64,000 bases of DNA from Streptomyces sp. NRRL F-5135 (GTDB lineage: Bacteria > Actinomycetota > Actinomycetes > Streptomycetales > Streptomycetaceae), in the NCBI RefSeq assembly GCF_000719775.1, contig NZ_JOHR01000012.1, positions 186,001-250,000 on the forward strand, written 5' to 3'. A program made the position numbers and the translations under genes. Positions within the stretch are counted from its first letter, which is position 1, and every line of letters begins with the position of its first letter. Below, piece by piece: positions 38,266-53,788 of the stretch. The notes below the pieces were generated by a model. It saw nothing but the letters and a program-made list of their open reading frames with translations. It was not told where the DNA came from and made no database searches.

Positions 38266-38833
38266 GCGCGGTACGGAATCCGGAGGTGTCTCGCCCGCCG
38301 TCACCTGGGGCTTGTTGGCCGCCTTCGTGGTGCACGATCTGGAGGAGCTGGCCACCATGCCCGGCTGGGCCGAGGCCCAAGTCGACCGGTTGCGGGAGGC
38401 CTGCCCGCGGGTACCCGAACGGGTCTGGTCCGCGATGCGGGTGACTCCCGGACACGCGGCCACCGCCATCGGCCTGATGGGGCTGGTGGTCGCGGCGGCC
38501 TCGGCCGACGGAGCGAGGACCGGCGGGAAGTCCGCCTTCTTCCAGACCGTACTGGCCGGGTTCGGGCTGCACGCCGTGTCGCATGTGGCGCAGAGCGCAG
38601 GCCTGCGCGGGTACACGCCCGGAGTGGTCACCGCGCCGCTGGTGGTCGCCCCGTTCTCCCTCTGGGCCTGGCGGGAACTGCGGCGCGGCGGTGTGCTCAA
38701 GGAGGTCGACACGCGGGGCGTGGTGACGAGCGCCGCCCTGTTCCCGGTGGGCATCCTCGGCGTGCACGCGGCGGCCTTCGGGGTCAGGCGGCTGGCCCGC
38801 GGAACCGCCCGGGCCCGCCCGGCGCGCCGCTGA
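38258..38833 (+). CDS. HXXEE-domain membrane protein
   Basis: 191 residues, starting 8 bases inside the dikinase gene with GGAGGGG upstream. The family motif is HDLEE (residues 26-30, in FVVHDLEELATMPGW), and further conserved histidines lie in LGFGLH-like AGFGLHAVSHVAQS and ILGVHAAAF. There are four to five predicted membrane segments. HXXEE proteins are uncharacterised integral membrane proteins; the buried His/Glu set suggests metal or haem binding, but this is inference. Coupling to the dikinase implies a joint function, perhaps in tailoring or resistance. Confidence 0.82.
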   Translation: MSERGTESGGVSPAVTWGLLAAFVVHDLEELATMPGWAEAQVDRLREACPRVPERVWSAMRVTPGHAATAIGLMGLVVAAASADGARTGGKSAFFQTVLAGFGLHAVSHVAQSAGLRGYTPGVVTAPLVVAPFSLWAWRELRRGGVLKEVDTRGVVTSAALFPVGILGVHAAAFGVRRLARGTARARPARR

Positions 38834-38886: not shown

Positions 38887-40065
38887 TCAGGGGCGCGGGA
38901 GGTCCCGGAGGCCGGCGTGATGGCGTTCGGCGATCCGGGTCGCCACCCGCCGGGGACTCATGCCGGTGGCCCGGACCTCGGCGAAGACGTCCTCGACGAG
39001 CCGCCACACGGTTTTGTCGATCTTCGCCAGGGCCTCCCCGGCGTCCGCGCCGACATCCCCGAAGAGCGTCCACCACCACCAGCTGTTCGCGGCGAAGTTG
39101 GCGAGGAAGTCCGGCACCACGACCACACCGCGGTCCAGCAACGCCTTCTCGGCGCTGGGCAGTACGGAGACGTTCGCCGCCTCGACGAGGTACCGGCACC
39201 GTACGTCCGGCTCGTTCTCGTCGTCCACGGCGTAGGACGTCGCCGCGGTGACCAGGACGTCCGACGCCACCGAGAGCCACCGCGCGCGTCGCAGCAGGCG
39301 GGCGCCGGGGGAGAGCCGGTCACGGTCGATCAGACCGTCGGCGCTGCGGCCGGCCAGGAGGGCCTCCACGTCCAGGCCGTCCGGATCGGCCACCGCTCCG
39401 GCCCGGTCGACGACGGCGACGACGCGCAGGCCGGCCCGGGCCAGGTAGCGAGCGGCGGCGCCGCCCATCGAACCGAAGCCCTGCACCACGGCGGTCCGGC
39501 CCGCCGGGTCCTCGTCGTGTTCCGCCAGCGTCGCCAGCACGGCCTGGGCCACACCGTAGCCGCCGACCGTGTCGCCCAGGCCGAGTCCCTCGACCCGGAC
39601 CGCGAAGGCGTCGTCGAGCCGGCGCAGTCCCGCCTCCGGGCCGTCGGGCACGTGCCGGAGCGCGGGCTGGACACAGGAGCGGAGGCCGGCGGCGGTGACC
39701 GCCTCGTCGATGGCCTCCTGACGGGTGCCCAGGTCCTCGCCCGCGGCCCAGTACGTCTCGATCAACGGGCTGACAGCGGCCAGGAAGCGGGCCAGGACGC
39801 CCGGCGCCGCGGGGTCGGCGGGGTCGAAGTCGATGCCTCCCTTGGCGCCGCCGAAGGGCTGATAGCGGTCTCCGGGCTGGTGGACCAGCGCCTCTTTGAG
39901 GGTCATCGTCCGCGCCAGCTCGGTGACTTCGGCCGGCGTGCAGCCGGGACGCATCCTGAGCCCGCCGCTGGCGACGCCGCGCAGCAGCCGGTCGATCACC
40001 AGATAACCCTGGGCGCCGGTCTCCTCGTCGGACCAGGTCAGTTGAAGAAAGGGAGTTCGGTGCAC
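38887..40065 (-). CDS. Glu/Leu/Phe/Val dehydrogenase-family amino-acid dehydrogenase
   Basis: 392 residues from a GTG at 40065 with an ideal GGAGGAACC site. The substrate domain keeps GGLRMRPGCT and PFGGAKGGID with catalytic Lys75; the Rossmann domain has QGFGSMGGAAARYLA (GFGSMG at 196-201). Such enzymes interconvert an L-amino acid and its 2-oxo acid with NAD(P). It is the last gene of a five-gene operon on the minus strand and directly follows a ThDP decarboxylase gene, so the pair may deaminate then decarboxylate an amino acid to an aldehyde, or the reverse supply route. Its substrate is not predictable; no close match to housekeeping Glu or Leu dehydrogenase length is evident. Confidence 0.88.
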   Translation of the reverse strand: MHRTPFLQLTWSDEETGAQGYLVIDRLLRGVASGGLRMRPGCTPAEVTELARTMTLKEALVHQPGDRYQPFGGAKGGIDFDPADPAAPGVLARFLAAVSPLIETYWAAGEDLGTRQEAIDEAVTAAGLRSCVQPALRHVPDGPEAGLRRLDDAFAVRVEGLGLGDTVGGYGVAQAVLATLAEHDEDPAGRTAVVQGFGSMGGAAARYLARAGLRVVAVVDRAGAVADPDGLDVEALLAGRSADGLIDRDRLSPGARLLRRARWLSVASDVLVTAATSYAVDDENEPDVRCRYLVEAANVSVLPSAEKALLDRGVVVVPDFLANFAANSWWWWTLFGDVGADAGEALAKIDKTVWRLVEDVFAEVRATGMSPRRVATRIAERHHAGLRDLPRP

Positions 40066-40120: not shown

Positions 40121-41680
40121 TCAGCCGGGCGGCTCGGGGATCTCGATGACGGTCGGTCCGGGCGTGGTGAGGGCCACCGCGACGGCGGCCCGCAGCTCCG
40201 CGGGGCCGGCGGCGTGCACTCCGGCCCCGCCGTAGGCCCGGCTCAGCGCCGGGAAGTCCGGGCCGTGCAGATCGACCCCGACCGGGGGGCACCCCCGCTC
40301 CGTCATCTCCTGACGGATCATGCCGTAGCCCCCGTTGTTCACCACCACCACGGGCAGCGGCAGGCCGAGTTCCACCGCCGTGGCCAGTTCGTTCACCGTG
40401 AACTGGAGCCCGCCGTCACCGGTGAGGACGGCCACCGGGCGGCCGGGGTCGGCGACGGCGGCGCCGATGGCGGCGGGCAGCGCGTATCCCAGGGTGCCGA
40501 AGCCCGTCGGATAAAGGAACCGGCCGGGCTGTTCCACGGCGAAGCCGGTCAGCGCGCCGAAGTAGCAGACCTGCGCGCTGTCGTTGACGAGTGCGGCGTC
40601 CTCGGGGAGCGCCGCCCGGACCGCCTCGATGAGCGGACGCCAGCGCCGCCCGTACGCCGTGACGGCGGACCGCGGTGTCACCTCCCGTCGCCGCCGGCCC
40701 GGCGCCCGGGGCGCCAGGGCCCGCCGCAGCCGGGCCAGAGTGGGCGCCGCGTCCCCGGCCAGCGGATGCGCGGCGGTGGGGCGGTGGAGCTGGGACGGGT
40801 CGATGTCCACCCGCACCAGCCGGCCGTCGAGCCGCAGCGGCTCGTCCCAGGTGTCGGTCTCGGCGAGTTCCGTGCCGACGGCGAGCACGACGTCGGCACG
40901 GCGGAGGAACTCCCGCACCTCGGGAATGTGCAGTCCGGCCCCGAGGGAGAGGGGATGGCCTTCCGGGAACACCCCCTTGCCGTTGGCGGTGGTCACCGTC
41001 GGTGCCGCCAGCAGTCCGGCGAGCGCGCGCACCTCGGCGGCGGCGTTCCGGGCCCCGCCGCCCACGATCAGCGCCGGCCGCCCGGCCGCCGACAGGGCCG
41101 CCGCGGCGGCCCGGATCCCGCTCTCCTCGGCAGCCCGCGGCAGTACCCGGGCCGCGGCCGGCACGGTGATGTCGGCGGTGCGGGCGAGCAGGTCGTAGGG
41201 CACTTCCAGATGGACCGGACGGGGCCGGCCGGTGGCGAAGTCCGTGAACATGGAGGCCAGGACGCGAAGCATCTCGGGGAGCGTCCCGACCCGTTCGCTC
41301 CGCGCGCAGACGGCGGCCATCGCCGCCGACTGGTCCTTGACCTCGTGCAGCAGGCCGGACCCCTGCTCGTGGCCCAGCGGCATGCCGGGCGAGACGATCA
41401 GCATGGGCACCGAGTCCGAGTACGCCTGACCGGCCGCCGCGGCGGCGTTGAGCAGGCCGGGACCACTGGTGGTCACCACCACGCCGGGGCGCCCGGTCAC
41501 CCGGGCGTAGCCGTCGGCGGCGTATCCGGCACCCTGTTCGTGGCGCGGTGTGACGACCCGCAGCCGGCCGGGCCCGAGATGCCGGTAGATCTCCAGGTTG
41601 TGGGTGCCGGGGATACCGAAGACCACATCGACGTGGTGCGCGCGTAGCGCGGTGACCAGCAATTCTCCGCCTGTGGGCAA
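40121..41680 (-). CDS. ThDP-dependent decarboxylase/acyloin-type enzyme (AruI-like)
   Basis: 519 residues from a TTG at 41680, chosen because GGGGGAACGCA precedes it and the protein starts directly at the fold (GGELLVTALRAHHVDVVFGIPGTHN). The ThDP-activating Glu48 lies in RHEQGAGYAADGYARVTG; the cofactor motif runs from GDGGLQFTVNEL (near 421) to VVNNGGYGM. The overall pattern is that of acetolactate-synthase-like enzymes and especially 5-guanidino-2-oxopentanoate decarboxylases. It should decarboxylate a 2-oxo acid, giving an aldehyde or an acyloin with a second carbonyl. The neighbouring amino-acid dehydrogenase could provide the oxo acid. Cytoplasmic; part of the minus-strand operon. Confidence 0.9.
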   Translation of the reverse strand: MPTGGELLVTALRAHHVDVVFGIPGTHNLEIYRHLGPGRLRVVTPRHEQGAGYAADGYARVTGRPGVVVTTSGPGLLNAAAAAGQAYSDSVPMLIVSPGMPLGHEQGSGLLHEVKDQSAAMAAVCARSERVGTLPEMLRVLASMFTDFATGRPRPVHLEVPYDLLARTADITVPAAARVLPRAAEESGIRAAAAALSAAGRPALIVGGGARNAAAEVRALAGLLAAPTVTTANGKGVFPEGHPLSLGAGLHIPEVREFLRRADVVLAVGTELAETDTWDEPLRLDGRLVRVDIDPSQLHRPTAAHPLAGDAAPTLARLRRALAPRAPGRRRREVTPRSAVTAYGRRWRPLIEAVRAALPEDAALVNDSAQVCYFGALTGFAVEQPGRFLYPTGFGTLGYALPAAIGAAVADPGRPVAVLTGDGGLQFTVNELATAVELGLPLPVVVVNNGGYGMIRQEMTERGCPPVGVDLHGPDFPALSRAYGGAGVHAAGPAELRAAVAVALTTPGPTVIEIPEPPG

Positions 41681-41751
41681 TGCGTTCCCCCGTGGTCGGT
41701 CAGGCCTGTGTCCCGGCGCGGGGCCGGGACACAGGGCGGGCGGTGGTCCGG

Positions 41752-42234
41752 TCAGTCCAGGGCGGACGCCTTGACGCCGTCGCGCTCCGCGGCCAGCTCC
41801 CGTACGTGGTCGTTGAGGGCGTAGCGCTCGAGGACCGACGCCGGCAGGTCCGACGCCCCGGTGATGGTGCCGAGGCAGGCGTCGGCACCGCACCGGCAGG
41901 CGAAGGGGCTCCCCATGCTCCACTCGGTCGAGGGGTAGAAGAAGCTGAGCGGTTCGCCGACGGCGATCGGCCGGATCGCGACCACATGCCGGGCCTCGGT
42001 GTCGAGGAACGTGTTGGGAACACATGAGTGGTTCAGGAAGTGGAGGTTCTCGGGGTCGAGGTGCTCCTCGCGCGAGACCTGGACGCTGTACACCGTGGGT
42101 TCCCCGGTCCTGACGTTGCCGGTCAGCGGGGAGACCACCTCTCCCACGCGCAGGGCGCGCCGGGCGTTGTACCCCTTGCCCCCGGCGTGGAACGTCGTTT
42201 CCTGAACCAGACTTTCATGCCTCATCTGCGGCAC
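41752..42234 (-). CDS. SET-domain protein
   Basis: 160 residues from a GTG at 42234 with AGGAAGGG five bases upstream; an in-frame ATG at 42225 is the alternative. It overlaps the ketosynthase gene by 20 bases, so translation is coupled. SET hallmarks are clear: NHSCVPNTF (the pseudoknot Asn-His-Ser-Cys), AIRPIAVGEPLSFFYPSTEW, and a post-SET CRCGADACLGTI with cysteines for zinc. SET proteins are normally SAM-dependent protein-lysine methyltransferases. As a compact single-domain protein inside a biosynthetic operon it may methylate a small molecule or a carrier-bound intermediate, or another cluster protein. No function can be assigned from sequence. Confidence 0.87.
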   Translation of the reverse strand: MPQMRHESLVQETTFHAGGKGYNARRALRVGEVVSPLTGNVRTGEPTVYSVQVSREEHLDPENLHFLNHSCVPNTFLDTEARHVVAIRPIAVGEPLSFFYPSTEWSMGSPFACRCGADACLGTITGASDLPASVLERYALNDHVRELAAERDGVKASALD

Positions 42235-43510
42235 TCGACCCTTCCTGTTCCCAGCGGCGGACGATGAGAACCGCGTTGTGTCCGCCGAAACCGAATGAGT
42301 TGCTCATCGCCACGTCGGTGTCCCACTTCTGGGCCACGTCCGGTACGAAGTTCAGCTGGTCGTCCTCCGGAACCTCACAGTTGAGCGTAGGGGGTACGAC
42401 ACTGTCCTGAATGGCTTTCACGGATGCGATCAGTTCGACCGCACCGGTTCCCGAGATCAGGTGCCCGGTCATGGATTTGGTGGAGCTGACCGGGATCTGG
42501 AGGGCACGGTCGCCGAGCACGTCCCGCAGGGCCGCGATCTCGGTCGTGTCGTTGAGTTCGGTGCTCGTCCCGTGCGCGTTGACGTAGTCGACGTCCTCCG
42601 GCCTCAGACCGGCCGACTCCAGGGCGATCCGCATGGCCCGCTTGGTGCCCAGTCCCTCGGGGTGCGGGGCCGTGAGGTGGTAGGCGTCAGTGGTGGCCCC
42701 GTACCCGACCAGCTCCGCGAGGACGGTGGCGCCCCGCCGCCGGGCGTGCTCGGCCTCCTCCAGGACCAGGACACCCGCACCGGCCCCCATGACGAAGCCG
42801 TCCCGGTCCTTGTCGAACGGGCGGCAGGCCCGGCCGGGAGCGTCGTTGCGGCGGGACAGGGCCCGGCAGGCCGCGGCGGCGGCGATGTTGAGACGGGTGA
42901 CGGGCGCCTCCGTGCCACCGGCCACCATCACGTCGGCCACGCCGAACTGGATGAGCCGCATGGCCTCGCCGATGGAGGTGGCACCCGACGCGCAGGCGGT
43001 GGTCAGGCTGGCCGACGGCCCGCAGGCGCCGAGCCACAGCGCGATCTCCCCGGCCGTGGCCTCGGAGCCGCTGGTGGCGAAGAAGAACGGGCTCACGGCG
43101 CGAGCGCCCCGTTCGTGGAGCTTGACGGTGGTGTCGTAGTTCATCGTGGCGGGGCCGGCCGAGGAACCGACGTAGACGCCCACCCGCGGCGCCAACTCCT
43201 CGTCGACTTCCAGTTTCGCCTGTTGGACCGCCTGCATCGCCGCGGCCACCCCGTACTGCGTGCTGACGTCGATCCGGCGCGACACCTTGTGCGGCATGTA
43301 CACGCCGGGGTCGAATTCCTTGACCTCCGCGCCGATGCGCACCGGCAGATCGGAGGCGTCGAAACCCTTGATGTCCGAGATGCCGCTGCGTCCATTGACG
43401 AGCGACGCCCAGAAGTCATCCACCGTGAGCCCGACCGGAGTAATTGCTCCGTAGCCGGTGATAACCACTTTTCGTCGGTCCTGCGGTTCTGAACCCACCT
43501 GAAATCCCAT
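42215..43510 (-). CDS. FabF-type beta-ketoacyl-ACP synthase
   Basis: 431 residues, the usual KAS II length. Catalytic residues are Cys173 (TTACASGA), His313 (NAHGTSTELND) and His350 (KSMTGHLISGTGA). The canonical GHLLGAAGA loop is altered to GHLISGTGA, and SPFFFATSGSEATAGEIALWLG also differs from primary FabF, which suggests a specialised chain length. It would condense a starter acyl group with malonyl-ACP during assembly of the cluster's acyl chain, with the FabG, FabI, MaoC and ACP genes of the divergent operon. It is 31 bases downstream of the AMP-ligase gene and coupled to the SET gene. Confidence 0.93.
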   Translation of the reverse strand: MGFQVGSEPQDRRKVVITGYGAITPVGLTVDDFWASLVNGRSGISDIKGFDASDLPVRIGAEVKEFDPGVYMPHKVSRRIDVSTQYGVAAAMQAVQQAKLEVDEELAPRVGVYVGSSAGPATMNYDTTVKLHERGARAVSPFFFATSGSEATAGEIALWLGACGPSASLTTACASGATSIGEAMRLIQFGVADVMVAGGTEAPVTRLNIAAAAACRALSRRNDAPGRACRPFDKDRDGFVMGAGAGVLVLEEAEHARRRGATVLAELVGYGATTDAYHLTAPHPEGLGTKRAMRIALESAGLRPEDVDYVNAHGTSTELNDTTEIAALRDVLGDRALQIPVSSTKSMTGHLISGTGAVELIASVKAIQDSVVPPTLNCEVPEDDQLNFVPDVAQKWDTDVAMSNSFGFGGHNAVLIVRRWEQEGSSAADEA

Positions 43511-43541: not shown

Positions 43542-44987
43542 TCATCCGGAAAGGGCGTCGGCGGCTTCGGTTCTCTCGTCGACGGCGGAGTCCGCCAGCC
43601 TGAGGATGCGGCGCGTGTCCGTCTTTCCGTTGTGATTGAGCGGGAACTTTCCGACCACCACGACCTTGTTCGGCTGCTCGTATGCCGGAAGGAGTTCGCA
43701 GATGCGCTCGCGCCAGTACCGTGACGCGCGCTCCTCGGGGTCCTCCACCAGGAATACGAGCCGGCTTCCGAGCCGTTCGTCGGGTTGCGGGACGACCTGC
43801 ACGGGAGCACCGCACTCGGCCGCCTTGCGCTCGATGATGTCGGGATAGAGGGTGTATCCCATGCGGTGCACCGCGGACTTGCGTCCCAGCACGAAGAGAT
43901 TCCCGTCGCCGTCCATCGAGCCGAGGTCCCCGGGGCTGTACCACTCGGACACCGCGGGGACGATCTCTCCGCCCGGACTCAGGTATCCGCTGAAGGCGTC
44001 GGGCGTGCGGATGCGCAGTTCGCCGATGGCGCCCGGTGGCAGCGGCAGGGCGGCGTCGTCGGTGATCCGCACCACGACGCCGGGGAACACCTGGCCCGCG
44101 CCGACCGGGTTCTCCGGCAGCGCGGCCGCGATGTTGCCCATTTCCGTACTGCCGTAGCCGTCGAGCAGCGGCCGTCCGAACACCGTGGCGAACCGCGCGG
44201 CCGCCGACTGGTCCAGCGGAGCGCCGCCCGTGCAGTACATCCGCACCCCGCTCAGGTCCGCGGCCAGCTCCGGCCGGCGTTCGACCAGGTTGAGCAGGCT
44301 TCTGTGGGTCGCGGGTGTGGCGTCGACGACGGTGACGCCGGCCTGTCCCGCCATCCGCACCGCGCGGTCCAGCCGCCGGTACGGGGCGACCACCAGCGAG
44401 GCGTCGGCCAGCCAGGCGATCAGGAGGAGCGACAGCCCGTACTGGTGGGAGAACGGCAGCAGCGGAAGCAGCACGTCATCGGCGCGGTAGCGCATGAACT
44501 CGATGGTGCGGCGCAGGTTCCGGAGCACCGGCCGGCCGGACTTGACGATGCCCTTCGGCTCGCCGGTCGAGCCCGAGGACCAGGTGATCAGCGCGTCCGG
44601 CAGCCGTTCCCAGGTGTCGAAGCGGATCTGTTCGTCCGTGGGCCGGCGTTCCGCCGCCGCGGCGAGCAGTTCGTACACGAACAGCCGGGGCGGACCGGGC
44701 ACTTCGGGCGCGTCGTCGTCGACCACCGCGAGCCGGGCCCTGGCCTGAGCGGCGGCCCGGCCGCTCTCCTCCGCACGCTGCAACTGGTCGAGCAGGGCGA
44801 CGGACGCCCCGATGTGCATCAGGCCGAGGAGGACCGCGACGAACCCCGCGGAGTTGCCGGCCTTGAGGACGACCCGGTCGCCGGCGGAAACCCCCCGCTC
44901 CCGCAGAACATCGGCGACGCGCAGTGCCGTGCCCTGTAACTGGGACCTGGTCTGCACGGAATCCATGGACAAGAACTTTGCTGGCAT
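43542..44987 (-). CDS. Acyl-CoA synthetase / acyl-AMP ligase
   Basis: About 481 residues from the ATG at 44987; GGAA upstream is weak and an ATG at 44966 is possible. ANL-superfamily cores are present: A3 is ITWSSGSTGEPKG, A5-like GYGSTEMGN, A7-like WYSPGDLGSMDGDGN, and the A10 lysine is in PLNHNGKTDTRRI. It activates a carboxylic acid as the acyl-AMP and probably loads it on CoA or the free ACP as starter for the FabF-type synthase. First gene of the minus-strand operon (ligase, KS, SET, ThDP enzyme, dehydrogenase), with a promoter about 260 bases upstream. Confidence 0.9.
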   Translation of the reverse strand: MPAKFLSMDSVQTRSQLQGTALRVADVLRERGVSAGDRVVLKAGNSAGFVAVLLGLMHIGASVALLDQLQRAEESGRAAAQARARLAVVDDDAPEVPGPPRLFVYELLAAAAERRPTDEQIRFDTWERLPDALITWSSGSTGEPKGIVKSGRPVLRNLRRTIEFMRYRADDVLLPLLPFSHQYGLSLLLIAWLADASLVVAPYRRLDRAVRMAGQAGVTVVDATPATHRSLLNLVERRPELAADLSGVRMYCTGGAPLDQSAAARFATVFGRPLLDGYGSTEMGNIAAALPENPVGAGQVFPGVVVRITDDAALPLPPGAIGELRIRTPDAFSGYLSPGGEIVPAVSEWYSPGDLGSMDGDGNLFVLGRKSAVHRMGYTLYPDIIERKAAECGAPVQVVPQPDERLGSRLVFLVEDPEERASRYWRERICELLPAYEQPNKVVVVGKFPLNHNGKTDTRRILRLADSAVDERTEAADALSG

Positions 44988-45253
44988 GTGCTTATTGCTG
45001 TTCCTTCCCGTGTGCGTGTGCATGTGCGTGTTGAGCAGGAGCCGGCACGGCAGGGAACGGAAGGATGGGCCCGTGGGTCGTTCTCCGACCTCGCGCAGCC
45101 CGCAAGCGAATCGGACATTTGACGTGAAAATGCACGCGATAGAACGAGTATTTCCACGCGCCCCGAAGGGACGACATGTCCTTGCCCCCGATTGAACCCC
45201 CGTTGGGCAGCCTGGGCGCCTCGTGACGAGGGCTCGAACGGCTGCTCCCGGTG

Positions 45254-45283
45254 AGCGTACGAAGTCCAATCCGGCCGCGTCAA
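45254..45283 (-). promoter_or_regulatory. Promoter for the AMP-ligase operon
   Basis: On the minus strand TTGACG (45283-45278) and TACGCT (45259-45254) are 18 bases apart, close to the housekeeping (HrdB) pattern. The transcript would have a leader of about 260 bases before the ligase gene. Confidence 0.55.
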
Positions 45284-45370
45284 CACAATGCGTGCCGCGA
45301 AAATCCGGAGCGTTCCCATCCGAATAATCGGCTGATTGATCATCTCGCTGCCGTCGGGCGCCGGCGTCGC

Positions 45371-45400
45371 TTGACACTCGCGCGTACGTCTGCCTAGGTT
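45371..45400 (+). promoter_or_regulatory. Promoter for the fabG-to-FAD-oxidase operon
   Basis: TTGACA (45371-45376) and TAGGTT (45395-45400) are 18 bases apart, one of the best housekeeping-type promoters in the window. Transcription from about 45407 gives a leader of about 240 bases before fabG and could read the eight genes to 53,788. Confidence 0.65.
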
Positions 45401-45646: not shown

Positions 45647-46354
45647 ATGGCAGGACGCACAACTCTGATCAGCGGAGGGAACCGAGGAATCGGTCTCTCG
45701 ACCGTGCGGGCGCTGTCCGAGGCCGGTGAGACGGTGGTGGCCACGTACCGGAAGGATCCCGCGCCCGACGGTTGCCGCGCGGTGCGGTGCGACATCACCG
45801 ATCCCGAGCAGGTCGAGCGGGCCTTCAAGAAGGTCGAGGAGGAGTTCGGCCCGGTCGAGGTGCTGGTCGCCAACGCGGGGATCACCCGCGACGGCCTGCT
45901 GGTCACCATGTCGGACGAGGATCTCGGCGCCGTGGTGGAGACCAACCTGCTGGGCACGGCACGCGTGGTACGCCGCGCTCTGCGGGGCATGATCAGGCGC
46001 CGCCACGGGCGCGTCGTCCTGATCTCCTCCGTCTCCGGTCTCTCCGGTGCCGCGGGACAGGCCAACTACGCCGCGGCCAAGGCCGGCCTGATCGGTCTGG
46101 GGCGCTCGCTGGCCCGCGAAGTGGCCGGCCGGGACATCACGGTGAACATCGTCGCGCCGGGCTGGATCGACACGGACATGACCACGGCTCTCCCCGAACG
46201 GACACGGCGGGAGGCCGCCGGCCAGGTCCCGATGCGCCGCTTTGGCCGGCCGGAGGAGGTGGCGGCCGCCGTCCGCTTTCTGACCAGCCGCGAAGCCGGC
46301 TACATCACCGGCGCGGTCGTCCCGGTGGACGGCGGAATCGGAATGGGGCACTGA
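45647..46354 (+). CDS. FabG-like 3-oxoacyl-ACP reductase (SDR)
   Basis: 235 residues from an ATG with GGGGAGG ten bases upstream. A classical SDR: cofactor motif GGNRGIG, NAG motif VANAGITRDG, catalytic Ser in LISSVSG and Tyr-x3-Lys in YAAAKAG, and the C-terminal VVPVDGGIGMGH typical of FabG. It reduces the 3-oxo group after each condensation to the 3-hydroxyacyl-ACP with NADPH. First gene of the eight-gene plus-strand operon; its TGA overlaps the next ATG (TGATG). Probably dedicated to this cluster rather than primary fatty acid synthesis, given the neighbours. Confidence 0.93.
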   Translation: MAGRTTLISGGNRGIGLSTVRALSEAGETVVATYRKDPAPDGCRAVRCDITDPEQVERAFKKVEEEFGPVEVLVANAGITRDGLLVTMSDEDLGAVVETNLLGTARVVRRALRGMIRRRHGRVVLISSVSGLSGAAGQANYAAAKAGLIGLGRSLAREVAGRDITVNIVAPGWIDTDMTTALPERTRREAAGQVPMRRFGRPEEVAAAVRFLTSREAGYITGAVVPVDGGIGMGH

Positions 46355-47154
46355 TGGGACTGCTGACCGGAAAGACGCTGCTGATCACCGGCGTCATCAC
46401 CGAGTCCTCGATCGCCTTCCAGGTCGCCCGCGCGGCCCAGGAACAGGGGGCGCGGGTCGTCCTCACCGGGTTCGGCCGGGTGTCCCTGGTCGAACGCATC
46501 GCCAAACGGCTGCCGGAGCCGGCCCCGGTCACCGAGCTCGACGTCACCGACGAGGAGCAACTGAGCACTCTTCCCGACCGGGTCCGCGAGCACACCGACC
46601 GGCTGGACGGGGTGCTGCACTCGGTCGCCTACGCCCCGCCCGGGGCACTGGACGGCAAATTTCTGGACACCACCTGGGAAGAGGCGGCCACCGCGCTCCA
46701 TGTCTCCACTTACTCCCTCCAGGCGCTCACCACATCGCTCTTACCGTTGATGGACCGCGGCGGCTCGGTGGTGGGTCTGGACTTCGACGCGAGCCACACC
46801 TGGTCGGGCTACGACTGGATGGGCGTGGCCAAGGCCGGCCTGGAATCATGCGCCCGCTACCTGGCCTCGCACCTCGGAGCGCGGGGGATCAGGGTGAATC
46901 TCGTCGCGGCCGGACCGCTGAGCACCCTGGCGGCCCGCAACATCTCCGCGGGCGACGGTTCCGGCACGTTCGACGGCGGCTGGTCCGAGCGGGCGCCGCT
47001 GGGGTGGGACTCCCGGAACTTCCAACCGGTGGCCAACGCCTGTGTGGCTCTGTTCTCCGACCTCTTCCCGGCCACCACCGGGGAGATCGTCCACGTCGAC
47101 GGCGGAGCCCACGCGGTCGGCGACCGCCCCGCGCACACCCCGGCCGTCCGGTGA
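46354..47154 (+). CDS. FabI-type enoyl-ACP reductase
   Basis: 266 residues; the ATG overlaps the fabG stop. FabI/InhA-like SDR features: GKTLLITGVITESSIAF at the start, HSVAYAPPGAL, and YDWMGVAKAGLES with the Tyr-x6-Lys pair (Tyr and Lys of the catalytic site), ending GEIVHVDGGAHAV. It reduces the 2-enoyl-ACP to the saturated chain with NAD(P)H, so at least one extension cycle in this pathway is fully reducing. Its presence separates the cluster from those that keep polyene chains. Coupled to the MaoC gene by a GTGA overlap. Confidence 0.92.
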   Translation: MGLLTGKTLLITGVITESSIAFQVARAAQEQGARVVLTGFGRVSLVERIAKRLPEPAPVTELDVTDEEQLSTLPDRVREHTDRLDGVLHSVAYAPPGALDGKFLDTTWEEAATALHVSTYSLQALTTSLLPLMDRGGSVVGLDFDASHTWSGYDWMGVAKAGLESCARYLASHLGARGIRVNLVAAGPLSTLAARNISAGDGSGTFDGGWSERAPLGWDSRNFQPVANACVALFSDLFPATTGEIVHVDGGAHAVGDRPAHTPAVR

Positions 47155-47609
47155 CCCCGCTGCGTCCCACGCTGGACCAGCTCGCCCGGCACATCGGTCC
47201 GCTGGGGTACAGCGGCTGGCGCCGGATCAGCCAGCAGCAGGTGAATCTCTTCGCCGACGCCACCGACGACCACCAGTGGATCCACGTCGATCCGGACCGG
47301 GCCGCCGAGGGCCCGTTCGGGGGGACCGTCGCGCACGGCTTCCTGACCCTGTCGCTGCTGCCCGCGCTCACCTCCGAGGTGCTGGACGTCAGCGGTGTCG
47401 TACAAGCGGTCAACCACCGGGTCGACCGGGTACGGTTCCGGGCCCCGGTGGCGGTCGGTGCCCGGCTCCGTGCCTCGGTGGAGCTGCTCTCGGTGCGGCC
47501 TCGGCCGCGCGGATTCACCGAGGTCGTCGTCGCGGTCGCCATGGAACTGGACGACCGGCGGATTGCGTGCACCGCCGAGCAGACCACCCTTTACCTGGAC
47601 GGGGCGTAG
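47151..47609 (+). CDS. MaoC-type 3-hydroxyacyl-ACP dehydratase
   Basis: 152 residues from a GTG overlapping the fabI stop (GTGA). The hotdog-fold hydratase motif is intact: FADATDDHQWIHVDPDRAAEGPFGGTVAHGFLTLSLLP (Asp and His of the active site in D-x4-H), followed by NHRVDRVRFRAPVAVGARLR. It removes water from 3-hydroxyacyl-ACP between the FabG and FabI steps. Together with the KS and ACP it completes a four-enzyme elongation cycle. Only six bases separate it from the exporter gene. Confidence 0.9.
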   Translation: MTPLRPTLDQLARHIGPLGYSGWRRISQQQVNLFADATDDHQWIHVDPDRAAEGPFGGTVAHGFLTLSLLPALTSEVLDVSGVVQAVNHRVDRVRFRAPVAVGARLRASVELLSVRPRPRGFTEVVVAVAMELDDRRIACTAEQTTLYLDGA

Positions 47610-47615
47610 CCGACC

Positions 47616-48986
47616 GTGGGGAACTGGGCAGCGGCCGGGCCGGCGAACCGAACCAGGACCACCGTGGGGTCTCTGGTGCTCCTCGAAGTGGCGGCCACGG
47701 CATCCACCTGCGCGAACGGTCTGGTGACCCTGGCCCTGCCCTGGCTGGTCCTGGAGCGGACCGGCAGTCCCGCCGACGCCGGCCTGGTCTCCGCGACGGT
47801 CACCCTGCCCCTGCTGGCGGGCGCCCTCTTCGCGGGGACCGTCGTCGACCTCTTCGGCCGGCGCCGTACGGCCGTCGGCTCCGATCTGATGTCCGCAATG
47901 TCCGTGGCAGCCGTACCACTGGCGGACGCGGCCCTTGGATTCTCACTGTGGTGGCTCGCCGCGCTGGCGGTCCTGGGGTCCGTTTTCGACCTGTCGGGGG
48001 TCACCGCGCGCAAGACCATGCTCCCGACCGCGGCCGCCCGGGCCGGCTGGTCGCTGGAAAAGGCGAACGGCGTCCACGAGTCGGCCAAGGCCTTCGCGTT
48101 GATGGCCGGCCCGGGAGTGGGCGGCCTGCTGATCGGGTTCGGGGGAGCGGTGGCGCCGCTGTGGGCCGCCGCGGTCCTCTCCCTGCTCGCCACCCTCGTG
48201 CAGGCCGGCATGCGGCTGCCGTCGCCGGAGCGCCACGGCGAACCGGCACAGGGCTCGCCCTGGCGCGCCGTCAGGCGTGGTGCGGCGGAGGGCCTGGTGA
48301 TGGTGTGGAACGACAGGCTCCTGCGCGTGGTGGGTCTGCTGGGCAGCGTGCTCTTCATGATCTACCTGCCGATCTCGGGGATCGTCCTGCCCGCCTACTT
48401 CCACGAGCAGGGCACTCCCCAGCGGCTCGGCCTGCTCACGGTCGCCATGACCGTCGGAGGTGTCGTCGGCGCGCTGGTCTACGGATTCCACGGGCACCGG
48501 CTGCCGCGGCGGGGCCTGTTCACCGCCACCATGCTGACCGCCTCGGCCGGACTCTTCGCCATGTCCTGGCTCCCGCCGTACCCGCTGCTGCTGACCGCCG
48601 CCGTGGTCGTCGGCGTCGCCTACGGGCCCATCAGCCCTCTGATGAACCTGGCCACACAGCTGCGTTCCACGGAACGGACCAGAGGCCGGGTCATGGGAAT
48701 CATGACCTCGTGCGGATACGTGGCGGGCCCCGCCGGGTTCCTGGCCGGTGGGCCGCTGGTCGAACGCCTCGGCCCCGGGACGTCGTTCGTGCTGCTCGCC
48801 TCGGTGCTCTGCGTCCTGGTCACGGGCGCGTCGCTGCTCCCCGCCCTGCGTGAGTTCAACCATCTCTCGGACGCGCACCTCTCCGGCGTACCGCCGCGAG
48901 CCGAAGGCTCCGGCCGCGCCGTCGACGGCCCGGCGCCCGGTGGCACGCCGTCCCGTCGGCCCGACGTAAGTCCTGAAACAGATTGA
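47616..48986 (+). CDS. MFS transporter, likely product exporter
   Basis: 456 residues from a GTG at 47616. Twelve predicted membrane spans; the loop between spans 2 and 3 has DLFGRRRTAVGSDLM, a variant of the MFS signature, and another similar loop follows after residue 250. The layout matches the MFS_1/enterobactin-exporter-like (MFS_3) group that pumps small molecules outward. Lying between MaoC and ACP genes in the same transcript, it probably exports the cluster product and gives some self-protection. The C-terminal 40 residues are a hydrophilic tail. Confidence 0.88.
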   Translation: MGNWAAAGPANRTRTTVGSLVLLEVAATASTCANGLVTLALPWLVLERTGSPADAGLVSATVTLPLLAGALFAGTVVDLFGRRRTAVGSDLMSAMSVAAVPLADAALGFSLWWLAALAVLGSVFDLSGVTARKTMLPTAAARAGWSLEKANGVHESAKAFALMAGPGVGGLLIGFGGAVAPLWAAAVLSLLATLVQAGMRLPSPERHGEPAQGSPWRAVRRGAAEGLVMVWNDRLLRVVGLLGSVLFMIYLPISGIVLPAYFHEQGTPQRLGLLTVAMTVGGVVGALVYGFHGHRLPRRGLFTATMLTASAGLFAMSWLPPYPLLLTAAVVVGVAYGPISPLMNLATQLRSTERTRGRVMGIMTSCGYVAGPAGFLAGGPLVERLGPGTSFVLLASVLCVLVTGASLLPALREFNHLSDAHLSGVPPRAEGSGRAVDGPAPGGTPSRRPDVSPETD

Positions 48987-48999
48987 AAGGTGAACTGAC

Positions 49000-49251
49000 A
49001 TGGTCCTTCAGTACGAAGAGGTTCTCGCCGGCATCGCCGAGATCGTGCATGAGATCGCCGGCATCCCGACCGCGGACGTCGAACCGGCCAAGTCCTTCGT
49101 CGACGAGCTCGACGTGGACTCCCTGTCCATGGTCGAGGTCATCGTCGCGGCCGAGGAGCGCTTCGGCGTCACCATCCCGGATGACGACGCCAGGAACCTC
49201 AAGACGGTGGGCGACGCGGTGGATTTCATCGTGCTGGCCGGTGACGCCTGA
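49000..49251 (+). CDS. Free-standing acyl carrier protein
   Basis: 83 residues, an acidic four-helix carrier. The phosphopantetheine site is the Ser in ELDVDSLSMVEV, and the third helix is IPDDDARNLKTVGDAVDFI. GAAAGG-like GAAAGGTGAA precedes the ATG. It would carry the growing acyl chain between the FabF-type KS, FabG, MaoC and FabI, and present the finished chain to the NRPS condensation domain. It lies 13 bases after the exporter gene and 51 bases before the hydroxylase gene. Confidence 0.94.
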   Translation: MVLQYEEVLAGIAEIVHEIAGIPTADVEPAKSFVDELDVDSLSMVEVIVAAEERFGVTIPDDDARNLKTVGDAVDFIVLAGDA

Positions 49252-49302: not shown

Positions 49303-50673
49303 ATGGGGTCCGACAACGCCCGCCCCGGCCAGGCGCACTATCGGTGCGTCGGGGCCGGGGCGGGGCCCGCGAACCTGAGTCTGGCATCGCTCCTGTACAG
49401 CCACCCCGAGACGACCAACCTCTTCCTTGACCGGAAGGCCGCCTTCAGCTGGCACGACAGCCAGCAGATACCCGGTACGACCCTCCAGGTGTCCACGTTC
49501 AAGGACCTGGTCAGTCTCGCCGACCCGACGAACCCCTTCTCCTTCCTGTCCTATCTCCACGAGCAGGGGCGGGTGTACCACTTCCTCAACGCGCAGTTCG
49601 CCGAGGTGCCGCGCCAGGAGTTCCGCAACTACCTGGAATGGGCCGGCAGACGCAACGAGAACGTCGTCTTCGGGGAGGAGGTGCGGGAGGTCGACTTCGA
49701 CAGCACCGGAGACGGTCGCTACGTGGTGCGGACCGACCGGCGCCGGGTGACCGCCGACAACGTGGTGGTCGGGGTCGGCACGCGGCCGTGGGTCCCGCCG
49801 CACGCGCGGGCCGGACTGGGCAGGAGCCACTTCCACGTCAGCGAGTTCCTGGAGAAGGCCGGCGACGTGGGCGGCAAGCGGGTCGCGGTGATCGGCGGCG
49901 GTCAGTCGGGCGCGGAGGCATTCCTCGACCTGATCTCGCGTCCCGCCGCCGAGCGCCCGGACCGGGTCTCCTGGTTCTCCCGGCGGCGCAACTACCTGCC
50001 GCTCGACGACTCGCCGTTCACCAACGACTTCTACATGCCGTGCCACTCGGAGCACCACTACAACCTGCCGGCCGAGGCCCGGTCCGCCTTCAACGTCGAG
50101 CAACTCCTCAGCAGCGACGGCATCTCCGAAGTGACGCTCCGACAGATCTATCAGCAGCTCTACCTCCTGTCCTTCGTGACCGGCGCACCCGGCCTGGCCA
50201 GCCTCTATCCCCACCGCGAGGTCACCGACGTGACCGGCGGCGACAGCGAACCGCGGCACCTCACGATCCGGCACAAGGACGAGCCGGGCGCCGTCGAGCA
50301 CGAAAGGGCGGACGTCGTCATCTGGGCGACCGGCTTCCGCCCCGCCCCGATGGACTTCCTCGCCCCCGTCGCCGACCGCCTGGAGCGCGAGGGCGACGAG
50401 CTGCGCGTCGACCAGGACTACGCGGTGCACTGGGACGGTCCGCTGAACCGCAGGATCTTCGTGCAGAACGCCGTGCGCGAGCAGCGCGGTCTGGCCGACC
50501 CCAACCTCAGCCTCAACGCCTGGCGGAGCCGGCGCATCGCCGACCGGCTGCGCGGTGTCCGGACGGAAGAGCAGCTCCCGTCATTCGTCGCCTGGTCGTC
50601 GAAGGCGTCGGCCGAGCAGTACCGGACCTTGAGCGGGACGGGGACGACGATGAAGAAGAGGTATCGGACGTGA
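49303..50673 (+). CDS. L-lysine N6-hydroxylase (flavin-dependent N-monooxygenase)
   Basis: 456 residues, family length. It should hydroxylate the side-chain amine of lysine (or a related diamine such as ornithine) with FAD, NADPH and O2. The FAD motif GAGAGPANLSLA is at 17-28, the substrate segment FSWHDSQQIPGTTLQVSTFKDLV follows, the NADPH motif GGGQSGAEAF is near 197-206, and the FAD-closing ATGF motif (VIWATGFRP) and DPNLSLNAWRSRRIA end the protein. In siderophore clusters such enzymes precede acylation, but here the next gene is a cupin-MetRS fusion overlapping by four bases (GTGA). This points to N6-hydroxylysine as the substrate for N-N bond formation. Confidence 0.95.
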   Translation: MGSDNARPGQAHYRCVGAGAGPANLSLASLLYSHPETTNLFLDRKAAFSWHDSQQIPGTTLQVSTFKDLVSLADPTNPFSFLSYLHEQGRVYHFLNAQFAEVPRQEFRNYLEWAGRRNENVVFGEEVREVDFDSTGDGRYVVRTDRRRVTADNVVVGVGTRPWVPPHARAGLGRSHFHVSEFLEKAGDVGGKRVAVIGGGQSGAEAFLDLISRPAAERPDRVSWFSRRRNYLPLDDSPFTNDFYMPCHSEHHYNLPAEARSAFNVEQLLSSDGISEVTLRQIYQQLYLLSFVTGAPGLASLYPHREVTDVTGGDSEPRHLTIRHKDEPGAVEHERADVVIWATGFRPAPMDFLAPVADRLEREGDELRVDQDYAVHWDGPLNRRIFVQNAVREQRGLADPNLSLNAWRSRRIADRLRGVRTEEQLPSFVAWSSKASAEQYRTLSGTGTTMKKRYRT

Positions 50674-52685
50674 TCATCAGTGTCTACGACGGCAACCCCC
50701 GGTACGAAGGGTTCGGCATCGGGCTGACCGGCGTCGAAGGGCTGGGCGTGGGCGCCGACTGGGGCAGGGTCGTCCCGGGCGGCAGGTCCCTCTCGCACCG
50801 GCATGACGAGACCGAGATGTTCGTGATCGTGCGAGGACGGGGCGAGCTGGTCGTCGACGGTGTGCGCCACCCGGTCGCGCCCGGCACGCTCGCGCTGTTC
50901 GAGCCCTTCGAGTCCCACGTACTGGAGAACACCGGCGACACCGACCTGGTCTTCCTGACCCAGTACTGGAGGGACGCGGACCGGGCGCTGGTCTCGGCCC
51001 GGTCCGCGGACCGACTGGGCTTCGGCGGCCGTCCGGTCTTCGTGTGCTCGCCGCCGCCGACGCCCAACGGCGACCTGCACCTCGGGCACCTGGCGGGACC
51101 GTATATCGGGGCCGACGCCTATGTGCGCTTCCAGCGCATGAACGGCGTCGAAGCCTGGCACGTCACCGGCAGCGACGACTTCCAGAGCTACGTAGGGGCC
51201 GCCGCGCGCGGCGAGAGCCGGGAGACGGCCCCGACGGCGGCCCATTACAGCGACGAGATCGCCGCCACCCTCGCCCTGATGGACATCCGCGTGGACCAGT
51301 ACACGGTGCCCCACCGGGACGAGACGTACCGCCGCGGACTGCGGTCGTTCTTCACGCGTCTGGTCGACACCGGTGCGGTGGCTCCACGGGAGGGCGAGGC
51401 GCTCTTCGACTCGGAGACCGGCGAGTATCTTTACGAGGCCGACGTCACCGGACGCTGCCCGACGTGTGCTGGTGCCACCGGCGGCAACATGTGCGAGCAG
51501 TGCGGTGAGCCGAACACCGTCGTCGATCTGGCCGAGCCCGTTTCCCTGCGGTCGGCGGCCGAGCCGCGTCGCGGTCCGGTCACCCGGTACTCGCTGCCGC
51601 TGCACGAGTTCCGCGAGACCGTCAGGGAGCACCACCGCGTCGGCCGGGTGCCGGCCCGCCTGCGGGAACTCGCGGCCCGGGTCCTCGCCCGGCCGGTCCT
51701 GGACCTGCCCGTCAGCCACCCCTCCTCATGGGGCGTGACGCCCGCCGAGGGGAACGAGGACACGGAAGGCCAGGTGATCTGGGCGTGGCCTGAGCTGTCC
51801 TACGGCTTCCTGTACGGCATCCAGGCGCTCGGCAGCCGCCTGGGCAGGGACTGGCGCGCGTCCGAGCCGGACCAGGACTGGAAGATCGTCCACTTCCTGG
51901 GCTACGACAACGGCTTTTACCACTCGGTCCTCTCTCCCGTGCTCTACGGACTGGCCTTCCCTGAGTGGGCCCCCGACATCGACTACCACGTCAACGAGTT
52001 CTACCTGCTCGAGGGCAGCAAATTCTCCACGAGCCGCCGCCACGCCATCTGGGGCAAGGAGATCCTCGGCCCGGACAGCGTCGACGCTGTCCGCTACTTC
52101 CTGTCGAGCACCCGTCCGGAAGGGCTCAGGACCAACTTCGCGGGCGCGGAGTACGACACGCTGGTGCGTGACACGCTCATCGGAACGTGGCAGGAGTGGC
52201 TGGGCGACCTCGGCGAGCGCCTCGGCAAGGACTTCGACGGCGTGGCACCGGACGCCGGGAACTGGGCGCCGGAGCATTCGGCCTTCCTGGGCTCCCTGGG
52301 CGGTCGGCTGTCCGCGCTGACCGCGGCCCTGAGCCCGGACGGCTTCTCCCTGCGGCGGGCCGCCGCCGAGCTGAACGGCATCGTGACGGACGCCGTCGGG
52401 TTCTCCCGCCGGGAGAGCCCGCTGGCCGCCACCGAGTGGTCCGACGACCACCGGACCGTCATCGCCCTGGAGCTGGCCGCGGCCCGTCTGCTGGCCCACG
52501 GGTCGGCGCCGCTCATGCCCCGCTTCTCGGCACGCCTCGGCAGGGCACTGGGCCTGGGCGTTCCCTCCCACTGGCCCAGGACGGTCGGACTGCTGCCCCC
52601 CGGCACCCGGGTCGGCCTCGTCGGCGAGGTGTTCTTCGCACCGCCGGACCCGCTGCCCGACCCGTCGTCCCCGCTCCGGTCATGA
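50670..52685 (+). CDS. Hydrazine synthetase: cupin fused to methionyl-tRNA-synthetase-like domain
   Basis: 671 residues from a GTG inside the hydroxylase stop. Residues 1-105 are a cupin with metal ligands His43, His45, Glu49 and His83 (SHRHDETEM, FESHVLEN). Residues about 122-640 resemble class I MetRS: HLGH at 137-140 in PTPNGDLHLGHLAG, a zinc ribbon (Cys263, 266, 275, 278), and a KMSKS-equivalent SKFSTS at 450-455. In the Spb40-type enzymes of hydrazine pathways the MetRS part activates an amino acid (glycine in s56-p1), and the cupin rearranges its ester with N6-hydroxylysine to make the N-N bond. A tRNA anticodon-binding function is not expected. The amino-acid partner here is unproven. 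The ATG of the oxidase gene overlaps its stop. Confidence 0.92.
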   Translation: MIISVYDGNPRYEGFGIGLTGVEGLGVGADWGRVVPGGRSLSHRHDETEMFVIVRGRGELVVDGVRHPVAPGTLALFEPFESHVLENTGDTDLVFLTQYWRDADRALVSARSADRLGFGGRPVFVCSPPPTPNGDLHLGHLAGPYIGADAYVRFQRMNGVEAWHVTGSDDFQSYVGAAARGESRETAPTAAHYSDEIAATLALMDIRVDQYTVPHRDETYRRGLRSFFTRLVDTGAVAPREGEALFDSETGEYLYEADVTGRCPTCAGATGGNMCEQCGEPNTVVDLAEPVSLRSAAEPRRGPVTRYSLPLHEFRETVREHHRVGRVPARLRELAARVLARPVLDLPVSHPSSWGVTPAEGNEDTEGQVIWAWPELSYGFLYGIQALGSRLGRDWRASEPDQDWKIVHFLGYDNGFYHSVLSPVLYGLAFPEWAPDIDYHVNEFYLLEGSKFSTSRRHAIWGKEILGPDSVDAVRYFLSSTRPEGLRTNFAGAEYDTLVRDTLIGTWQEWLGDLGERLGKDFDGVAPDAGNWAPEHSAFLGSLGGRLSALTAALSPDGFSLRRAAAELNGIVTDAVGFSRRESPLAATEWSDDHRTVIALELAAARLLAHGSAPLMPRFSARLGRALGLGVPSHWPRTVGLLPPGTRVGLVGEVFFAPPDPLPDPSSPLRS

Positions 52686-53788
52686 GCCGTGTCGACGTCG
52701 ATGTCGTGGTGGTCGGCGCGGGGCTGGCGGGGGCGGCCACCGCCTGGCAGCTGGCCGGGCGCGGGGTGGCGGTCGCGGTGGTGGAGGCGTACCGCGCCGG
52801 GCACCGTCACGGCAGCTCGCACGGCAGCTCACGGATCTTCCGGCGCACCTACGAGGACCCGTTCTACGTTGGTCTGACGGGGCGGGCCGCGGAGTACTGG
52901 CGAGAGCTGGAGTCCGATTCCGGTACGGTCCTGCGCCGCCGCACCGGTGGCCTGGACATGGGAGCCGGGAGCGCACCGGAGAAGCTGGCCGGGGCCCTGG
53001 CGGGGGCCGGGGTGCCGTACGAACTGCTGACGTCGCGGGAGGCGGGCCTGCGCTGGCGCGGCCTGCGTTTCGAGGGGCCCGTCCTCCACCACCCGGAAGC
53101 CGGCGTTCTGGACCCCGCCGCCACCGTCGCGGCCTGTCTGCGCCGTGCCGTGGAACGGGGGGCGGAGGTGCTCACCGGGACCCGGGTCGTCCGGGCCGAG
53201 TACCCGGTGTCGGGCGGGGTCCGCCTCCGTACGGACACCGGCACCGAACTGTCCGCCCGGCGGGCGGTGGTCGCCGCCGGGGCGTGGCTGCCGGTGCTGG
53301 CCGGGGTCTTCGACATCCCCGTGCCCCCGCTGGAGGTGACCCAGCAGCAGGTGTTCCACTTCCGTCAGGACGAGCCCGACGCGGACTGGCCGGTCTTCCT
53401 GCACAGGGGCGACGTGCAGGTGTTCGGGGTGCCCTCCGGCTCCGACGCCGGTCCGGCGCCCGCGGTCAAAGTGGCGGAACTCGGCAACGGCACCCCGACC
53501 ACGGCCGACCTCCGCTCCGGGGTGCCCGACGCGGCCTCGCGCGCCGCCGTCACCGAGTTCGTCAGAACACGCCTCCCCGGACTGCGCGGTGAGCCGGTGG
53601 CGGAGAGTACCTGCCTCTACACCTCCACCGCGGACGGGGACTTCGTGCTGGACCGCCACGGCCCTGTCGTGGTGGTCTCGCCCTGCTCCGGCCACGGCGC
53701 CAAGTTCGCACCGCTGATCGGAGCGATGACCGCCGACCTGACCCTGGGCCGCACAGCCCCGCACCCCCGCTTCGCTCTGCGCCGCTGA
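52682..53788 (+). CDS. FAD-dependent amine oxidase (sarcosine-oxidase-like), hydrazine-releasing
   Basis: 368 residues; the ATG overlaps the synthetase stop (ATGA). DAO/MSOX fold: VVVVGAGLAGAATAWQLAGRG (GxGxxG from residue 12), HGSSHGSSRIFRRTYEDPFY as in monomeric sarcosine oxidases, and Cys311 in ESTCLYTSTADGDF, matching the Cys that covalently holds FAD in MSOX. In the s56-p1 type pathway a homologous enzyme oxidises the lysine-glycine N-N adduct to release hydrazinoacetate and 2-aminoadipate semialdehyde. Its position as third member of the overlapping trio supports the same job. Last gene of the plus-strand operon. Confidence 0.92.
   Translation: MSRVDVDVVVVGAGLAGAATAWQLAGRGVAVAVVEAYRAGHRHGSSHGSSRIFRRTYEDPFYVGLTGRAAEYWRELESDSGTVLRRRTGGLDMGAGSAPEKLAGALAGAGVPYELLTSREAGLRWRGLRFEGPVLHHPEAGVLDPAATVAACLRRAVERGAEVLTGTRVVRAEYPVSGGVRLRTDTGTELSARRAVVAAGAWLPVLAGVFDIPVPPLEVTQQQVFHFRQDEPDADWPVFLHRGDVQVFGVPSGSDAGPAPAVKVAELGNGTPTTADLRSGVPDAASRAAVTEFVRTRLPGLRGEPVAESTCLYTSTADGDFVLDRHGPVVVVSPCSGHGAKFAPLIGAMTADLTLGRTAPHPRFALRR

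Follow-up and report, generated by a model that had tools for sequence, protein, structure and literature searches.

Three adjoining genes with a predicted hydrazine synthetase

The 64,000-nucleotide stretch analyzed here (Streptomyces sp. NRRL F-5135, contig NZ_JOHR01000012.1, positions 186,001 to 250,000; hereafter the window) carries on its forward strand three adjoining genes which the original prediction had taken for a complete set for N-N bond formation. The first gene (49303..50673) encodes a lysine N6-hydroxylase-type flavin N-monooxygenase (NMO) of 456 amino acids (PF13434, 1.4e-90), which is 85% identical to its counterpart in Streptomyces corynorhini (locus L004) and 61% identical to its Nocardia ninae homologue in the dob locus (L020). 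The second (50670..52685, GTG start) encodes a 671-amino-acid fusion of a cupin to a methionyl-tRNA synthetase (MetRS)-like protein (PF07883, PF09334 and PF19303), a predicted hydrazine synthetase that ends without a C-terminal carrier domain. The third (52682..53788) encodes a 368-amino-acid FAD oxidase of the monomeric sarcosine oxidase (MSOX) type (PF01266, 3.1e-50). As originally described, both gene junctions are four-base overlaps (GTGA at 50670-50673 and ATGA at 52682-52685).

The diagnostic residues on which that description relied were all found. The flavin and NADPH motifs of the NMO are GAGPANLSL at residue 19, GGGQSGAE at 198 and ATGFRP at 342. The fusion has the HxHxxxE...H pattern of a cupin (H43/H45/E49/H83, with zinc as the predicted metal) and, in its MetRS-like domain, a HIGH-type HLGH at 137, a KMSKS-type SKFSTS at 450 and the zinc-ribbon pairs CPTC at 263 and CEQC at 275, and Cys311 of the oxidase, in TCLYT, aligns with a cysteine of solved sarcosine oxidase chains. 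In an alignment of 77 synthetase relatives, H137, H140, K451-S455 and the four cysteines were invariant, E49 was kept in all 73 rows having a residue there, and position 43 held H in 67 rows, D in four rows and Q in two. Compared by residue numbers, H43, H45, E49, H83 and K451 of the fusion each lie exactly 7 below H50, H52, E56, H90 and K458 of PyrN, so that both the cupin residues and the lysine of KFSTS are in register with that glutamate-using hydrazine synthetase, whereas RHS1, also glutamate-using, has Asp63 where the window synthetase has His. Four proteins of the window were also scanned against a defence library, which gave nothing relevant to the three genes.

A protein search with the synthetase, in which 7994 candidates of 5.8 billion sequences were scored, gave 781 matches at 1e-10. 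Among the best 120 of these 781, P0001 rounds to 100% identity, P0002-P0004, from Streptomyces clusters, show 83-87%, and the next match shows 72%; because the synthetase is 83-87% identical to that of three database clusters from other Streptomyces, the trio is not a chance arrangement. A scan of species-representative genomes gave 367 relatives, and the locus counts reported below refer to the best 80 of them (L004-L083), within which the closest locus is that of S. corynorhini (83%), followed by one at 71%.

In a maximum-likelihood tree of the MetRS part (quick method, SH-aLRT support, 101 rows), the synthetases of the window, P0002, P0003 and S. corynorhini formed a four-member clade (support 100; hereafter the window clade), which was nested in a 34-row set (98) together with those of S. 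fragilis (L015) and K. aureofaciens (L031). Clustering of the fusion with tRNA-charging MetRS, which the original prediction had named as a refuting result, was not seen in this tree: the other MetRS-like protein of the same genome (L002) is 25% identical to the fusion and fell far from it, although it is a single outgroup row with a very long branch, so that its exact placement is unsure. The four best-matching MetRS equivalog models scored the fusion at 167-200 bits, against cut-offs of 336-587. The NMO tree, also built by a quick method, was congruent with the synthetase tree, and placed the window NMO among NMOs of hydrazinoacetate-type loci. From this placement and this congruence, the fusion is, as judged by sequence comparison, a hydrazine-synthetase-family protein of the lineage found in hydrazinoacetate pathways (azaserine, triacsin, DOBA and N-nitroglycine loci), and both trees support reading the first two genes as an N-N bond-forming module like that of Spb38 and Spb40.

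The reference loci were identified in different ways. The gene content of L020 fits the dob gene set in the accessible part of the published account, where lysine activity is reported for DobG (PMC13061610). L043 is an S. noursei locus that we equated with NngKLM by organism; in the available text on NngKLM these enzymes are reported to yield hydrazinoacetate in vitro (PMC13274452). L015, L031 and L054 were identified by organism name, L031 being ATCC 10762 and not the triacsin strain, and the synthetase row L138, from a genome of the window's genus, does not differ from row L071 of S. sporangiiformans. Spb38/39/40 and their kin, including NngKLM for N-nitroglycine, DobG/DobE for DOBA and the azaserine and triacsin loci, share the N-hydroxylase and cupin-MetRS lineage with the window, but differ from it in the third enzyme, in gene order, in the predicted pocket of the synthetase and in the hydrazone genes, which were not found in the window.

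The third enzyme, the predicted pocket and the hydrazone-route genes

In related loci the usual gene order is NMO-oxidase-synthetase, with an oxidase of the Spb39/Tri27 type in the middle, whereas the window has NMO-synthetase-oxidase. With a hidden Markov model (HMM) built from the oxidases of five loci and a threshold of 150 bits on called genes, Spb39-type oxidases were detected in 72 of the 80 loci. A tblastn search with the dob enzyme raised this number to 79, the exception being S. corynorhini; the seven additional loci (L046, L051, L055, L056, L058, L067 and L069) had matches of 243-294 bits directly upstream of the synthetase that had been skipped by the gene caller, and L079-L081 hold divergent members (119-137 bits, 32-36% identity). 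In 78 loci the Spb39-type gene immediately precedes that of the synthetase, and in L039 it is found elsewhere. The window oxidase scored 20.6 bits with the Spb39-type model, and tblastn with the dob enzyme gave no match in the window. Conversely, an oxidase of the window type was present in one of these best 80 of 367 loci, that of S. corynorhini, a count that applies to this sample and not to the whole family.

The Spb39-type rows of a 36-oxidase tree formed a single clade (100); the oxidases of the window and S. corynorhini grouped with L105-L109, with a support of 83 for this set of seven and of 99 for a wider, 13-row set. With the family of monomeric sarcosine oxidase and N-methyltryptophan oxidase the window enzyme shares the FAD fold and, in an alignment with solved monomeric sarcosine oxidases, R51, R54, K263, C311 and K341; by analogy with that family, R51/R54, K263 and K341 would bind the substrate carboxylate and C311 the flavin. 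It differs in scoring below the cut-off of the N-methyltryptophan oxidase model (237.9 against 257 bits) and in its place in a hydrazine operon. On these profiles and trees, the third enzyme of the window is non-orthologous to the Spb39/Tri27 type and belongs to the monomeric-sarcosine-oxidase type.

The window oxidase is matched at 1e-90 in 11 others of 296 genomes, five of them at 63-66% identity. Four of these five (L105, L106, L108 and L109), together with L111 (54%), have neighbour genes in common, while L107 (63%) differs. The operon of L106 contains a type III glutamine synthetase that scores 603 bits against a cut-off of 470, a protein resembling glutamate synthase that stays far under its cut-off at 129 bits, and two further proteins without a match at 1e-30, one of which starts like a class II amidotransferase, as judged from its first residues. 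We infer for operons of this kind an N-alkyl-glutamate-type route. Two catabolic-looking clusters (L114, 9118-18519, and L112, 7769-11431) carry two sarcosine-oxidase-type genes next to a dehydrogenase of the Glu/Leu/Phe/Val (ELFV) type (51-52%), and L114 also carries a 2-ketoarginine-decarboxylase-type enzyme dependent on thiamine pyrophosphate (TPP; 51%). Distant synthetases split into cupin and MetRS-like parts were observed in L120 (3158-6337) and L121 (3040-6255), where the gene that follows encodes an MSOX-like oxidase with 34% and 33% identity, respectively, to that of the window.

Six positions were fixed in the window clade against a residue held by at least 90% of the 77 other relatives (C126, P128, P214, M274, L376 and L410). 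Four of these substitutions (C126, P128, L376 and L410) fall in three segments predicted to line the amino-acid pocket; these segments comprise 43 of 567 positions (hypergeometric p about 4e-4, for segments picked after inspection). At positions 126/128/372/376/410/422 the window clade reads CPALL[SA], with C/P/A/L/L/S in the window itself, and the signature FTVMFY (F126/T128/V372/M376/F410/Y422) stands in 62 of the 97 remaining rows, among them each of the five regarded as hydrazinoacetate makers. Of the six rows in a distant group of fused synthetases, four have FPALLL and the other two FPPLLL, so that P128, L376 and L410 are common to the window clade and all six rows, and A372 to four of them. 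Since most of the changes are toward smaller or less bulky residues, the second amino acid would be larger than glycine, or the pocket would at least be a non-standard one; it is thus probably not glycine that the window synthetase activates.

The hydrazone route from hydrazinoacetate, which involves a GNAT protein, a C45 peptidase and an acyl-CoA dehydrogenase, was reconstituted for dob according to the accessible text (PMC13061610). All three genes occurred together in 46 of the 80 loci, 74 loci had one or more of them, and queries for the three gave no match in the 64-kb window, L004, L118 or L143. These absences are local, because most loci span only about 10 kb on each side, and some less. 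A search with PF03417 gave no match in the genome of the window (a control search matched in 5 of 14 genomes), and the dob adenylase matched only the acyl ligase of the cluster, at 25%.

The surrounding 19-gene block

The trio lies at the end of a block of 19 genes, from a FolD-like gene (24935) to the oxidase (53788), that is conserved in S. corynorhini at 75-93%. The counterpart there is on two contigs and is broken inside the LuxR gene; no further window gene matched at more than 55% in the flanking stretches of S. corynorhini that were covered. Identities given below are to that species.

Directly before the trio, on the forward strand, lie genes for a FabG-type ketoreductase (45647..46354; PF13561, 87%), a FabI enoyl reductase (46354..47154; NF005908 above cut-off, 90%), a MaoC-type dehydratase (47151..47609; PF01575, 82%), an MFS transporter (47616..48986; PF07690, 86%) and a discrete acyl carrier protein (49000..49251; PF00550, 82%). 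These are preceded on the reverse strand by genes for an AMP-binding acyl ligase (43542..45023; PF00501, scored on the longer frame 43542-45377; 84%), a FabF-type ketosynthase (42215..43510; TIGR03150 above cut-off, 93%), a small SET-domain protein (41752..42234; PF00856, 81%), a TPP-dependent enzyme of the 5-guanidino-2-oxopentanoate decarboxylase type (40121..41662; NF005712 at 525.6 bits, cut-off 500, on the longer frame 40121-42025; 82%) and an ELFV-dehydrogenase-type enzyme (38887..40065; PF00208, 86%). Further upstream, the forward strand encodes an HXXEE-motif protein (38312..38833; PF13787, 85%), a phosphoenolpyruvate (PEP)-synthase-like protein with PPDK_N and PEP-utilizers domains (35461..38265; 77%) and a LuxR-type regulator (32637..35396; PF00196), whose S. 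corynorhini counterpart is split over two contig ends. The PEP-synthase-like protein is related to Rph and to the RedH/PigC ligases, below all their cut-offs; it may act as a ligase or as a phosphotransferase for self-resistance. On the reverse strand follow a nonribosomal peptide synthetase (NRPS) with condensation, adenylation (A) and peptidyl carrier domains (28966..32331; 80%), a ketosynthase-acyl carrier protein-thioesterase (KS-ACP-TE) protein in which Pfam found no acyltransferase (26055..28973; 80%) and, at the left edge of the block, the FolD-like protein (24935..25888; PF02882, 82%). The A-domain motifs of the NRPS are FDFAVWE, LNQTPS, VVFGGE and NMYGITETTVH, which read as a threonine-like code.

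Parts of this framework were found in other Streptomyces. A query with the SET protein matched in 4 of 391 other genomes of the genus at 1e-20, and in three of these four (L149-L151) the protein accompanies fatty-acid-cassette genes. One case is genome G034 (L149 and L153), where 11 of the 19 genes have counterparts of 46-80% identity and the A-domain motifs are near-identical; its ELFV and TPP genes (67% and 65%) occur with the fatty-acid cassette, but no trio was found, and an alpha-oxoamine synthase-type enzyme is present. G034 was not among the 75 of 295 genomes with a close synthetase relative at 1e-50, and a wider search, with E up to 1e-10, found no synthetase there but also missed the housekeeping MetRS, so that only a close relative is excluded. 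No window-type oxidase was found in G034 either, a negative that by itself shows nothing. Two other genomes, G427 and G503, have partial versions of the framework, and G503 has distant MetRS-like proteins (33-36%) elsewhere on its chromosome. As G034 has 11 of the 19 genes and neither a close synthetase nor a window-type oxidase was found in it, the cluster framework seems, from these comparisons, to occur independently of the trio, which may have been acquired by the window lineage or lost from G034.

Outside the cluster, the window encodes at 60063-62819 a single protein with TPR and serine/threonine kinase domains, and at 6033-8576 an FbiC-like protein of 847 amino acids that has two radical SAM stretches and whose C-terminal region is of the CofH/MqnC type.

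Predicted product and competing readings

The reading that we favour, and consider fairly probable from the sequence comparisons, is that of a cupin/MetRS-type hydrazine module placed in a 19-gene Streptomyces cluster of NRPS-polyketide/fatty-acid character, a module in which the amino-acid half has changed and the cleavage enzyme has been exchanged, and whose product would be other than standard free hydrazinoacetate. All the chemistry of the trio is inferred from relatives. By likeness to its close relatives, the flavin enzyme would hydroxylate lysine at N6; the MetRS-like domain would then adenylate the second amino acid and transfer it to N6-hydroxylysine as an O-ester, which the zinc cupin would convert by rearrangement to an internal hydrazine. 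The sarcosine-oxidase-type flavoenzyme may grip the N-substituted amino-acid end of the adduct, oxidise it and release a hydrazino acid, or may act with the opposite regiochemistry and give an omega-hydrazino amino acid. The resulting hydrazine would be used by the Thr-NRPS/KS-ACP-TE line. A more detailed version, which we offer tentatively and consider less probable, is that the synthetase switched substrate, partly converging on the pocket of the distant fused group, that the cleavage enzyme was recruited from an N-alkyl-glutamate-like oxidase, and that a new 2-hydrazino acid is delivered to the Thr-NRPS/KS-ACP-TE line; its reaction with a beta-keto thioester of the KS-ACP-TE protein to give a pyrazolone would be chemically natural, but is speculation.

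The original prediction had stated that such a set makes hydrazinoacetate or an analogue. Hydrazinoacetate does not follow from the trio, because an oxidase and a pocket specific to this lineage point more probably to another hydrazine, and the hydrazone genes were not found; the second half of the statement, an analogue, may still hold. The appeal to fosfazinomycin as a precedent was mistaken, since the available part of a review places that pathway not with the cupin/MetRS enzymes but under putative nitrite-dependent hydrazine synthases, starting with FzmM acting on aspartate (PMC11705231). A literature search, which mostly did not reach subscription papers, found no description of this cluster or of an MSOX-type third enzyme.

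Several observations weigh against the favoured reading. The pocket segments are a prediction, mapped by alignment with L002 and by E. coli MetRS numbering. Six relatives (L064, L066, L070, L071, L077 and L138), which form a separate synthetase clade with a pocket, FSSYL[IV], unlike both the glycine type and the window clade, yet keep Spb39-type oxidases, so pocket and oxidase changes need not be coupled. Glycine may still be used, because the window clade sits inside the glycine-type radiation, and the rows compared include no enzyme known to be specific for Ala, Ser, Glu or Tyr. Six of the 80 loci lack any hydrazone gene in the stretch examined, that is, five (L012, L039, L065, L080 and L083) in addition to L004. 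The pairs in L120 and L121 indicate that the MSOX fold has been paired with hydrazine synthetases more than once and that such a partner is not unique to the window. Finally, the accessible data on PyrN describe E56A and K458A as singly inactive and H52A and the H50A/H90A double variant as having less than 3% activity, while other single cupin-residue variants retain about 82% and 27% (PMC8664883); because of these last values, the match of the cupin residues is weaker evidence than it appears.

A competing explanation is an ordinary hydrazinoacetate maker, in which the synthetase uses glycine, the sarcosine-oxidase-type enzyme is a convergent, Spb39-like cleavage enzyme and hydrazinoacetate is used directly, without hydrazone genes. 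The lineage of the synthetase and NMO is of the hydrazinoacetate type, the MSOX fold suits an N-substituted glycine, as sarcosine is N-methylglycine, and the close relative L012 combines an FTVMFY pocket with an enzyme of the Spb39 type yet shows no hydrazone genes in the stretch examined. The four clade-fixed changes in the predicted pocket segments, and the closest oxidase relatives, mostly beside glutamate-metabolism-like genes, speak against this explanation, which we regard as doubtful though worth keeping in view. It is unlikely that the oxidase cuts the C-alpha-N bond of the second amino acid, as is reported for Apy10, to leave 6-hydrazinyl-norleucine, which the ELFV dehydrogenase and TPP enzyme would turn into a hydrazino-aldehyde or cyclic hydrazone. 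Such a route would agree with the TPP enzyme scoring above the 5-guanidino-2-oxopentanoate decarboxylase cut-off and with the co-occurrence of MSOX-, ELFV- and TPP-type relatives (50-51%) in L114. It has a precedent in the actinopyridazinones, where, in the accessible text, Apy9/Apy10/Apy11 follow the same logic of NMO, hydrazine synthetase and FAD oxidase as the window and the oxidase decides which half is released; however, Apy10 is said there to be of the Spb39/Tri27 family, which the window oxidase is not, and Apy11 uses DABA rather than lysine (PMC11705231). Because the ELFV and TPP genes accompany the fatty-acid cassette in G034, where no close synthetase or window-type oxidase was found, they more likely serve the acyl-chain module, and their action on 6-hydrazinyl-norleucine was largely rejected.

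Equally improbable, in our judgement, is that the oxidase stands outside the hydrazine steps and tailors a different intermediate, the internal hydrazine being incorporated uncleaved or cut by another enzyme: it is not close to the usual third enzyme and the gene order departs from NMO-oxidase-synthetase, but its gene overlaps that of the synthetase by four bases and adjoins it in the one sister locus examined. A MetRS paralogue that charges tRNA or confers antibiotic resistance is an extremely improbable identity for the fusion. Its MetRS fold and anticodon-type C-terminal domain would be expected of such a protein; its cupin with PyrN-like residues and the adjacent NMO would not, and a resistance paralogue was rejected on the equivalog scores and on the distance to L002 given above.

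On the favoured reading, the window offers a natural case in which pocket and oxidase apparently both changed within one young lineage, so that a few pocket residues and one enzyme swap become directly testable. It also presents an N-N module combined with a fatty-acid/NRPS framework, one that another Streptomyces apparently has without such a module.

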